This document shows, one piece after another, positions 6,796-40,122 of a DNA stretch of 64,000 nucleotides. How positions within the stretch are numbered: position 1 is the first letter of the stretch; each line of letters opens with the position of its first letter. Below the pieces are notes generated by a model that searched no databases, was not told the origin of the DNA, and was given only the letters and a program-made list of their open reading frames with translations. Where the stretch lies: contig NC_022571.1 of the NCBI RefSeq assembly GCF_000473995.1, positions 2,883,416 through 2,947,415 on the forward strand, in the 5' to 3' direction. This DNA comes from Clostridium saccharobutylicum DSM 13864. GTDB taxonomy: Bacteria; Bacillota; Clostridia; Clostridiales; Clostridiaceae. A program made the translations under genes and the position numbers.

Positions 6796-6824
6796 TTGAA
6801 CAAGCCATAACAATATAGTATAAT
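6796..6824 (+). promoter_or_regulatory. glnN promoter
   Basis: TTGAAC (6796-6801) and a perfect TATAAT (6819-6824) separated by 17 bp predict a sigma-A start near 6831 and a leader of about 320 nt. The preceding 6313-6795 stretch holds no gene. At 6664-6683 there is an AT hairpin (TTTTTAGT..ACTAAAAA), and at 6700-6717 an imperfect inverted copy of the leader's AGCAATGGGGCT segment. Confidence 0.7.
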
Positions 6825-6830
6825 TAACTC

Positions 6831-7150
6831 ATAAAGATTAAAGCTATGGCAGTTTTAATTATATATGTTTTGGTGATTATTATTTACAAATTTTAAATAA
6901 AATTTTAGCAATGGGGCTAAAGAATGTTGAATCTTTCTTTAGCCTCATTATTTTTTGAATATGAATTTTATTCCAAATATGTATTTATTAAGTAACAGCT
7001 GCTGTTTTATTCTATGTTTTTATTGACAAAGTAATATTTATATTGACATTTTGATATAAATATTCTACAATTTTTTGTAAATTATTAATTTTTTATTTTA
7101 GTTAATAACGATTTAAATAATGTTGCATATCTGAAAGGGGATTTTTATCA
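6831..7150 (+). ncRNA. glnN leader with candidate ANTAR-type antitermination site
   Basis: At the predicted transcript start, ATTAAAGCT (6837-6845) pairs with AGTTTTAAT (6851-6859) around the loop ATGGC. Further on, TTTTAGC (6903-6909) pairs with GCTAAAG (6916-6922) around the hexaloop AATGGG, with A at loop position 1 and G at position 4. The 3' part of that hairpin is also the 5' arm of the terminator at 6910-6956, so the two structures exclude each other. This is the architecture of ANTAR-protein targets in clostridial nitrogen genes. The first loop has 5, not 6, nt and the two hairpins are about 43 nt apart, so the assignment is tentative. Confidence 0.55.
6910..6956 (+). terminator. Intrinsic terminator inside the glnN leader
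   Basis: AATGGGGCTAAAGAA (6910-6924) pairs over 15 positions (one G-U) with TTCTTTAGCCTCATT (6935-6949). It is followed by T6 at 6951-6956. It lies about 200 nt upstream of the glnN start, so it should act as an attenuator. Confidence 0.85.
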
Positions 7151-9244
7151 ATGAACAAAATTAATGAAATTTTTGCTTCAAACGTATTTAGCGATGCTGT
7201 AATGAAAGAACGTCTTCCAAAGGCTACTTATAAAGCGTTAAAAAAGACAATTGAACAAGGAACTGCTCTTAAACTAGAGGTTGCAGATGTTGTTGCTTCT
7301 GCAATGAAAGATTGGGCTGTTGAAAAAGGGGCTACTCACTTCACTCACTGGTTCCAACCAATGACTGGAATTACTGCTGAAAAACATGATTCTTTCATCA
7401 ATCCAACTTCTGATGGAAATGTTATACTAGAATTTTCAGGTAAAGAATTAATTAAAGGTGAACCAGATGCATCTTCATTCCCTAATGGAGGACTTAGAGC
7501 TACTTTTGAAGCTAGAGGATACACTGCATGGGATTGTACTTCACCAGCATTTATTAAAGATGGTTCTTTATGTATTCCAACTGCTTTCTGTTCTTATAAT
7601 GGAGAAGCTTTAGACAAGAAAACTCCACTATTACGTTCAATGGAAGCTATAAATAAGCAAGCACTACGTGTTTTAAGATCATTAGGTAATACTACTACTC
7701 AAAAAGTTATTACAACTGTAGGTCCTGAACAAGAATACTTCTTAATCGATAAGAAAATGTATAATGCTCGTAAAGACCTTATCTTAACAGGAAGAACATT
7801 ATTCGGAGCAAAACCTTCAAAAGGTCAAGAACTTGAAGATCATTACTTCGGAACAATAAAGCAAAGAATTTCTGATTTCATGAAAGAATTAGATGAAGAA
7901 CTTTGGAAGCTTGGAATATTAGCTAAAACTAAACATAACGAAGTTGCTCCTGGTCAACATGAATTAGCTCCTATATTTAGTACAACAAATATATCAACTG
8001 ATCACAACCAACTTACAATGGAAATAATGAAGAAAGTTGCTGAAAAACATGATTTATATTGCCTACTTCATGAAAAACCATTTGCTGGAGTTAATGGATC
8101 AGGTAAGCATAACAACTGGTCAATGGGAACTGATGATGGAATGAACCTTCTTGAACCAGGAAAATCTCCACACGAAAATCAACAATTCCTTTTATTCCTT
8201 TGTGCTGTAATAAAAGCTGTTGATGAATATCCAGATTTATTAAGAGTATCAGCTGCAAATGCTGGAAATGACCACCGTTTAGGTGCTAACGAAGCTCCTC
8301 CAGCTATAATTTCTATATTCTTAGGAGATCAATTAGAAGACGTATTAGAACAAATAGAAAAAGGACCAGCTACAAGCTCTAAATCTTCAAGCAAATTAAC
8401 TATTGGAGTAAATACATTACCAGCTCTTCCAAAAGATGCAACTGACAGAAACAGAACTTCTCCATTTGCATTCACTGGAAACAAATTTGAATTTAGAATG
8501 GTTCCATCTTCAGCTTCAATTGCTGGATGTAACTTTGTTTTAAATACAATAGTTGCTGAAACTTTATCTGAAATTGCAGATAAGCTTGAAAAAGCTACTG
8601 ATTTAGATGCTGAAATCCAAGCAATCTTAACTGATATTGTTAAAAACCATAAGAGAATTATCTTCAATGGTAATGGATATTCAGATGAATGGGTTGCTGA
8701 AGCAGAAAGAAGAGGACTTCCAAACATTCACTCAACTGTAGAAGCTGCTAAAGCTATGATGTCTGAAAAGAATCAATCAGTACTTGAAAAACATGGAGTT
8801 TTAACTAGAGTTGAATCAGAATCTCGTTACGAAATAACTCTTGAAAACTACAATAAGATTATAAATATAGAAGCTTTAACAACACTTGAAATGGCAAAAC
8901 GTCAAATCTTACCTGCTGTAATCAAGTTTGCTACAAGCCTTGCGGAATCTATAAACACTATAAATGCTACTGGAATAGGCGCTGATGTTTCAGTTCAATC
9001 TGAATTATTAAAGCAAGTTTCAACATTAACAGCTTCATTAAATAAGAATGTAGTACTTCTTGAAAAATTAGTTGAAAAAGCTGACAACTTCACTGGAGAT
9101 ATATTCGATTTAGGTATGATGTACAGATACGAAGTATTTGAACAAATGAATACTTTAAGAGAAGATGCTGATAAGCTTGAAACTCTAGTTGATGAAAAAT
9201 TCTGGCCAATACCAACTTATGAAGATATGTTATTCAACGTTTAA
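7151..9244 (+). CDS. glnN: Glutamine synthetase type III
   Basis: Makes glutamine from glutamate, ammonia and ATP; a main entry of ammonium nitrogen in the cytoplasm. The 697-residue length is that of GSIII, far longer than GSI (~440). Visible blocks include the conserved N-terminal [17 protein letters not shown], the region [23 protein letters not shown], and the C-terminal [16 protein letters not shown] precedes ATG 7151. Transcription is probably controlled by the attenuator in its leader, and a strong hairpin with a GAAA loop ends the gene. Codon choice is that of a highly expressed gene. Confidence 0.97.
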
Positions 9245-9601: not shown

Positions 9602-10840
9602 TTAAGCTAATTCATCATTTAATTGTTCTTCAAATACTATTGATAATTCTGCTAAAGTACGACCCCAATTTGGTGTTGGTTGAGTCCACTTTTCTATAAT
9701 TTCCATAGTAGCTAGATAAACACATTTACTTAAAGATTCATCGGTTGGAAATACAGTTCTTGATTTAGTATACTTACGTATTTGTCTGTTAAATCCTTCA
9801 AGCGTATTAGTTGTATATATCATTTTTCTTATTTCAGGAGAGAAAGTGAAGAATGTTGATAGGTGACTCCAATTGTTATACCACGAATCTATTACAATAG
9901 CATATTTATCTCCCCACTTATCCTTTAAATTATCGAGCTGCGCTAGCGCAAGTTCCTCAGTTGAAGCCTTATAAACACATTTTAAATCTTTAATAAATTC
10001 TTTCTTATCTTTTGATGCTATATACTTAACTGAGTTTCTTATTTGGTGAACAATACATGTTTGAATGTTAACTGATGGAAATACAGTTTTAATGGCTTCT
10101 GGTAACCCCTTTAATCCGTCCATACATGCTATAAGGATTTCTCGTACGCCTCTATTTTTAAGATCAGTGCATATCTTTAACCAAAACTTAGCACCCTCAG
10201 CTTCATCTACCCAACTTCCTAAAATTTCTTTGTATCCTTGCATGTTGTATCCTAAGCATATATAAACAGCTTTATTCATAATCTTTCCATTGCTTCGCAC
10301 CTTGAAATACATACCATCCAAATACACTATTGGCTAAACTTTATCTAGTGATCTATTTTGCCACTCAACAGCACTTTCCATAACTTTATCTGTAATTCTA
10401 GATACCATAGAAGGTGATATTGTTATTCCATATAAGTCCTCTATTTCTGCTTGAATATCACTTGTGGTCATTCCTTTTGCGTAAAGAGAAATCACCTTTT
10501 TATCTAATTCTGTACACACAGTTTCGTATTTCTTTATAATTTGTGGCTCAAATTCAGCATTCCTATCTCTTGGTACGTCTAAATCGACGTCACCGAAGGA
10601 ACTTCTAAGATTTTTGGTACTATATCCATTTCGATAATTCTTTTTTGTAGAATCATTAGTTTCTGCTCTTTGATATTTATTTCTTCCAAGGTGTTCTTCC
10701 ATTTCACCTTCTAAAATATTTTCTAACACATCTTTAACTAATCTTTGAATTAAACCATTTTTACCCATGACATCATCGATAGTCTTACATTTCTTTACCT
10801 CAGCTTTGTAATCAAAGTCATCATCAATTGGTTTTGACAT
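9602..10840 (-). pseudogene. IS256/Mutator transposase, interrupted by an in-frame amber codon
   Basis: Read through, the frame encodes 412 amino-acid codons, normal for IS256 transposases. A TAG at 10334-10336 splits it into a 168-residue N-terminal part (start 10840, DNA-binding region) and a 241-residue C-terminal part (possible GTG start at 10327). Both parts are in the same frame. Related proteins usually have Tyr at this place (D-x-V-Y-P-I-V), so a single TAY-to-TAG change explains the break. The DDE triad lies wholly in the second part: Asp in Y-L-D-G, Asp in A-C-M-D-G, Glu in T-N-T-L-E-G-F-N-R. Most likely inactive, unless restart or suppression yields enough product. Confidence 0.88.
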
Positions 10841-39757: not shown

Positions 39758-39883
39758 TAATTTTCCACCCCATTAAAATTATTTATATCTAATATGTAAC
39801 TACTGCATCTTTAAATTATAAATTTTTCAAAGCAAATATAGAGGTGAATTCCTTTATATGTGAGAAATCATCATAAAAGTTAC

Positions 39884-39950
39884 CTCATAGTCTGCTAATA
39901 TACGGATAGCAGGTAGAAACTTTCCAACCATACATTTGGAAATATACGAG
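39884..39950 (-). ncRNA. Purine riboswitch, guanine type
   Basis: On the minus strand: P1 CTCGTA/TATGAG, P2 TTCCAA/TTGGAA with loop ATGTATGG, J2/3 AGTTTCTACC, P3 CTGCTA/TAGCAG with loop TCCGTATAT, and J3/1 GACTATGAG. The base after GA is C, the position that pairs with guanine (adenine aptamers have U). Downstream, GAGGTAACTT can pair imperfectly with AATTCACCTC at 39841-39850, with no strong T-run, so the expression platform is less clear. Confidence 0.93.
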
Positions 39951-40122
39951 TTTGTGTATTATTTGTGGTTATTATATCATAGTTTGTCTGTTTTGTAAAA
40001 AACATTAAATACTATTGCTTGTATTCACTATTTGTCATTAATTTTTCACAGCTTAATACTTTCATAAGCATTTATATCACTGGATTTCACAAATGCATTT
40101 TTTATACTTTTGTAGACATTAA

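Follow-up and report, generated by a model that had tools for sequence, protein, structure and literature searches.

Targets of ANTAR antiterminators have been defined, and searched for, as pairs of hexaloop hairpins, and structural modelling, as for P1 of the EutV system, casts the first loop as the one that brings in the protein ahead of terminator formation. The published motif places the two hexaloops 5–12 nt apart in the eut leaders of Enterococcus faecalis, with 2–25 nt accepted in actinobacteria. Both in vivo and in vitro, EutV depends on two hairpins separated by a short spacer; its action is abolished by loss of P1, by 14-nt spacers or by the addition of 20 nt. For nitrogen metabolism, a passage in PMC6316151 (citing Stutz et al. 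2007, Microbiology 153:3081) describes NitR, the ANTAR protein of strain NCP262, as antiterminating GS/GOGAT genes upon nitrogen limitation; Fierro-Monti 1992 is also cited on this protein in a passage of PMC4676874.

The genome analysed here is that of Clostridium saccharobutylicum NCP262/DSM 13864, and coordinates are positions in the window, by which we mean the whole 64-kb stretch of DNA examined. The leader of the glutamine synthetase gene glnN is built from the following elements.

6796–6824, + strand: sigma-A type promoter of the long glnN leader, TTGAAC-17-TATAAT (10/12 consensus matches), with boxes TTGAAC at 6796–6801 and TATAAT at 6819–6824, spaced by 17 nt
6837–6859, + strand: P1-like hairpin ATTAAAGCT-ATGGC-AGTTTTAAT, with a conserved top CTAYGGNAG
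6903–6922, + strand: P2 antiterminator hairpin TTTTAGC-AATGGG-GCTAAAG, whose helix covaries over 23 homologues
6910–6915, + strand: hexaloop AATGGG with A1 and G4, the putative ANTAR contact loop
6910–6949, + strand: 15-bp intrinsic terminator hairpin, exclusive with P2 (arms 6910–6924 and 6935–6949)
6951–6956, + strand: terminator U-tract, T6
7043–7071, + strand: second promoter, TTGACA-17-TACAAT (11/12 consensus matches)
7151–9244, + strand: glnN, the controlled gene, encoding a type III glutamine synthetase of 697 aa (assigned by Pfam domains)

The promoter, the upstream hairpin, the hexaloop hairpin and the base-sharing terminator with its T6 tract all lie where the initial annotation had placed them. 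Transcription of the long leader would start at about 6831, judging from the promoter consensus, and ATATAGTATAATT and the −35 region are kept among close relatives in a leader alignment. The hexaloop bases (6910–6915) double as the bottom of the terminator stem; with 6910–6922 shared in all, P2 and the terminator are mutually exclusive. The segment 6831–6960 folds to −29.8 kcal/mol, against −19.0 ± 2.9 kcal/mol for shuffles (z −3.7; 0/200 shuffles as good). Folded separately, the P2 hairpin comes out weak, at −5.1 kcal/mol, and the terminator strong, at −19.9 kcal/mol, so that the terminator should be the default state—a balance that, on these modelled energies, is as expected for a switch needing a protein. 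The second promoter, which 13 of 16 close relatives retain, sits between the terminator and glnN, where it would bypass the attenuator and provide attenuator-independent basal glnN transcription. GlnN itself matches GSIII_N (1e-83), Gln-synt_C-ter (5e-43) and Gln-synt_C (1e-21). Rfam scans of the leader matched no family, and their sub-threshold hits to microRNA and small-RNA families were dismissed as chance. Elsewhere in the window is a purine riboswitch aptamer (39868–39969, minus strand; RF00167, 66.3 bits). Just downstream of glnN lies a mutator-type transposase (9602–10840, minus strand; IS256-like by eye), present as two neighbouring ORFs (241 and 168 aa), the split being either a frameshift or programmed.

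The attenuator of the glnN leader is real. Over 23 diverged homologues, the P2 helix has 97.4% of cells paired with a covariation of 0.627, and the terminator helix 95.3% with a covariation of 0.774; neither result was reached in 500 shuffles, and slid versions of either helix likewise fall short of the observed pairing and covariation. Covariation in both of two overlapping helices is the signature of an exclusive pair, and the P2 5′ arm, which lies outside the terminator, covaries with the P2 3′ arm. An A1/G4 hexaloop sits within the terminator 5′ arm in 41 of the 42 glnN leaders examined in the genus, such that hexaloop and terminator are conserved together, rather than the terminator outlasting the loop. 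The one exception (G004) has glnN following asnA in an operon, and it is the asnA leader that carries AGC-AAAGAC-GCT and a terminator. These glnN leaders, which are related sequences, are our only unselected measure of loop conservation; sites beyond them were selected for having A1 and G4, and loop invariance there is not independent evidence.

The initial annotation had tied glnN to a nitrogen-sensing ANTAR regulator, and the genome bears this out. A whole-genome search returned a single ANTAR protein (188 aa, E 2.8e-20, above the cut-off), encoded directly downstream of glnA, and no second one; it is NitR, the published nitrogen antiterminator of the same strain. Aligned with EutV, NitR keeps the RNA-contact residues R142, K143, K147, K149, E160 and M172 and has Phe in place of Tyr164. 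The receiver phospho-acceptor of EutV, Asp54, is Gly in NitR and in the aligned members of the genus, whereas NitR-like proteins of other families retain Asp there, as EutV does. Because of this replacement, we reject activation by phosphorylation in genus Clostridium, where NitR is probably not phosphorylation-switched. Across the genus, 43 of 69 genomes have glnN; ANTAR proteins are present in 41/43 of these and in 13/26 of those lacking glnN (Fisher p 1.7e-5). The two glnN genomes in which ANTAR was not detected are 70% and 90% complete (G006 and G084, respectively). In distant Clostridium species, glnN and the ANTAR gene often share a contig, lying within a few kilobases of each other. With covarying exclusive helices, a hexaloop in 41 of 42 leaders and NitR as the lone ANTAR protein, encoded beside glnA, the ANTAR reading is well supported.

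The same attenuator precedes other genes. Two tandem promoter–hexaloop–terminator units lie before glnA–nitR in the C. saccharobutylicum genome (L075, ~620–670 and ~960–1015), implying that NitR would regulate its own synthesis. ANNG hexaloops in a terminator 5′ arm are also found before genes for an amino-acid ABC ATPase, an RpiR regulator, a nitrilase, an ammonium transporter, a class-III (GABA-type) aminotransferase and a solute-binding protein; MgtC, Opp permease and class-IV aminotransferase sites are weaker candidates, with short stems or an unclear promoter. Two tandem single-hexaloop attenuators stand before eutA (L221, G000:C1 ~4221600–4227200, minus strand), in an operon of eutA, a permease, eutB and eutC with EutVW not nearby, and ethanolamine use has apparently moved from EutVW to NitR in this genome. 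These are at least the sites present: model R1 scored 150 of 13,254 first-look places in the genome, making the list a lower bound, and two closing-pair patterns, with TC/CC closings left out, filled part of the gap. The fixed pattern GCAANGGNGC has 23 matches in the genome, mostly coding, with terminators only at the glnN and amino-acid ABC leaders; its reversed-pattern control contains CG and is unfair, and enrichment is not claimed. Low-scoring R1 matches that lack a hexaloop (for example, L191, L202, L206, L217 and L238) are plain terminators and were dropped.

Relatives add PII, a xanthine permease, a urea/amide-type ABC solute-binding protein and asnA to the list, under gene names read from the sequences, some of them supported by Pfam runs. 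An RpiR-family regulator is preceded by a NitR-type attenuator in many species (L182, L186, L187, L190, L199, L210 and L213; 3041285, minus strand, in C. saccharobutylicum). A model search of class Clostridia places the attenuator before glnN, asnA, amtB, gltB and gatC. Class-wide, 20 genomes have a verified hexaloop site, and 19 of them encode an ANTAR protein, against 34 of the 79 others (p 2.3e-5), G126 being the genome with the attenuator in which ANTAR was not detected. The gatC sites (an amidotransferase subunit; L240 in G135 and L244 in G097) link ANTAR control to glutamine-dependent tRNA amidation.

How many loops does such a leader hold? At none of 73 NitR-type sites do the 50 nt upstream of P2 contain a second ANNG hexaloop hairpin (1.7 expected from shuffles). 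Leaving aside the glnN leaders of the C. beijerinckii group, a promoter can be recognised at 65 of 75 sites, and at 52 of those 65 the −10 box ends no more than 20 nt from the P2 stem (median 11 nt; 6% for random anchors). A −10 box this close puts the stem near the transcript 5′ end, the hexaloop usually beginning no more than about a dozen nt from it, leaving little or no room for a first hairpin. As a positive control, the same scan showed dual hexaloops with short spacers in the EutV-type eut leaders of a sister species (G025): its eutG leader reads AATACAC-AATGAC-GTGTATT followed by GAGC-AACGAA-GCTT, and dual loops also precede its eutP–eutV genes. From the absence of a second loop, we infer that a single one may suffice.

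The P1-like hairpin at 6837–6859 has to be set against this pattern. The initial annotation had described it as a companion of P2 and had proposed that an ANTAR protein uses two A1/G4 loops. The hairpin is present and conserved—all 15 close relatives whose leaders are complete have it, its stem paired in 100% of cells with little covariation—but it is not a hexaloop. The loop, ATGGC, is 5 nt long, or 7 nt (TATGGCA) should the U-A pair come open, and U stands where A1 would align. The core AYGGN recurs in the P2 loop (AAYGGN), with the G aligned with G4 kept in 15/15. P1 and P2 lie 40–57 nt apart in this leader and those of close relatives. Related glnN leaders keep the hexaloop together with its terminator, and the glnN leader of C. 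saccharobutylicum itself has neither the second A1/G4 hexaloop nor the short spacer of the canonical EutV type. The P1-like hairpin is restricted to the glnN leaders of the C. beijerinckii group (which includes this genome), where the promoter lies ~70–94 nt from P2; none of the other glnN or NitR-type leaders examined has it. With a 5-nt loop at such a distance from P2 and no counterpart outside the group, the proposed use of two A1/G4 loops is not supported.

We therefore weighed what each part of the leader could do. It is highly probable, in our judgement, that NitR controls the glnN leader as a transcription attenuator in which one hexaloop per terminator is sufficient. Without active NitR, the nascent RNA would fold the 15-bp terminator (6910–6949) and transcription would stop near 6956. 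Under nitrogen limitation, NitR would grip the A1/G4 hexaloop of P2 (6903–6922) as it emerges and hold this weak hairpin; the terminator would then be denied its 5′ arm, and RNA polymerase would read on into glnN. In most NitR-type leaders the hexaloop would act close to the 5′ end, with no recruiting hairpin. That NitR binds the glnN leader RNA, and the direction of control, are what we infer from the sequence; dependence of glnN expression on nitR and nitrogen limitation is predicted, the literature reporting such control for GS/GOGAT genes. A quite different view holds that the hexaloop is a by-product of terminator conservation, or that another factor (a small RNA, a metabolite or another antiterminator) controls the leader. 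Contact between NitR and the RNA of these leaders is indeed a prediction, yet the P2 5′ arm, though outside the terminator, covaries with the 3′ arm, the leader resembles no Rfam family, and the attenuator both co-occurs with ANTAR genes and precedes nitrogen genes, including the operon of nitR itself. We regard this explanation as very improbable.

The remaining alternatives concern the P1-like hairpin. Were the leader a canonical dual-hairpin ANTAR switch, NitR would have to contact both the 6837–6859 hairpin and P2. The paired stem kept in every complete leader among close relatives and the AYGGN core with its invariant G4-aligned G fit such a role, but a loop of 5 (or 7) rather than 6 nt with U at A1 does not, nor does a spacer of 40–57 nt when eut leaders have 5–12 nt and either 14 nt or an extra 20 nt kills EutV action; moreover, neither the glnN leaders of other clades nor the remaining NitR-type leaders examined have P1. 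A dual-hairpin switch is therefore unlikely. More plausible, at somewhat short of an even chance, is that the hairpin is an unrelated 5′-end element, an RNA stabiliser or a pause site, leaving P2 as the sole NitR site in glnN: it occurs only where the promoter is ~80 nt from P2, and no other structure would precede it in the long leader, although its loop resembles the AYGG core of P2 beyond the needs of a generic stabiliser. The hairpin may, on these alignments, be an auxiliary element, perhaps a docking or a 5′-end element, and could be a second, non-canonical NitR site.

Extending the single-hexaloop reading to the nitrogen regulon of class Clostridia, we think it reasonably probable that one A1/G4 hexaloop near the 5′ end suffices for NitR (non-phosphorylatable in genus Clostridium) to block termination, against the requirement for a recruiting hairpin derived from EutV, and that the pentaloop hairpin of glnN is a clade-specific addition. 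The published EutV case, the best studied, contradicts a one-hairpin mechanism and counts against this reading. If one-hairpin attenuators do stand before central nitrogen genes across the class, this would show one loop to be enough and would explain how earlier covariance searches could miss such leaders. A leader of this kind offers a simple test system, with a 5′-end hairpin only some 40–50 nt before the terminator end. For an industrial solvent producer, the sites also outline a candidate NitR regulon, which takes in ethanolamine genes that are without EutVW there. The single-hexaloop variant of ANTAR antitermination appears to be new and widespread in Clostridia, and parts of it may have been described before.

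Among known systems, the EutV/EutW-controlled eut leaders of E. faecalis, Listeria and Clostridium (PMC3369931, PMC8934654) share with the NitR-type leaders an A1/G4 hexaloop on a short stem, a P2 overlapping the terminator 5′ arm, an ANTAR protein with the same RNA-contact residues and a nitrogen-related target. They differ in that NitR-type leaders have no second upstream hexaloop and usually carry theirs near the transcript 5′ end, and in that the NitR receiver of genus Clostridium has Gly for the phospho-acceptor Asp54. The extra single hexaloop of EutX/Rli55 (PMC8934654) is a comparable lone G4 loop thought to bind an ANTAR protein, but the RNA carrying it is a sequestering small RNA with a dual motif as well, rather than a one-hairpin attenuator. 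The NasR–nasF and AmiR–amiE leaders (PMC3369931) are likewise ANTAR-controlled, combining hexaloop and terminator before nitrogen-related genes; unlike ours, both leaders present two hairpins, and their sensors are arranged differently. Predicted ANTAR targets in diverse bacteria, Desulfotomaculum for example (PMC3369931), include the same kinds of gene (ammonium transporters, glutamine/glutamate synthases and PII), but were found with a dual-hairpin model that is blind by design to one-hairpin leaders. The published NitR of NCP262 is the same protein from the same strain, a GS/GOGAT antiterminator acting on nitrogen limitation. To what the cited passages say of it, our analysis adds a putative RNA target, namely one hexaloop that overlaps the terminator, as well as candidate target genes, among them glnN, amtB and eut.
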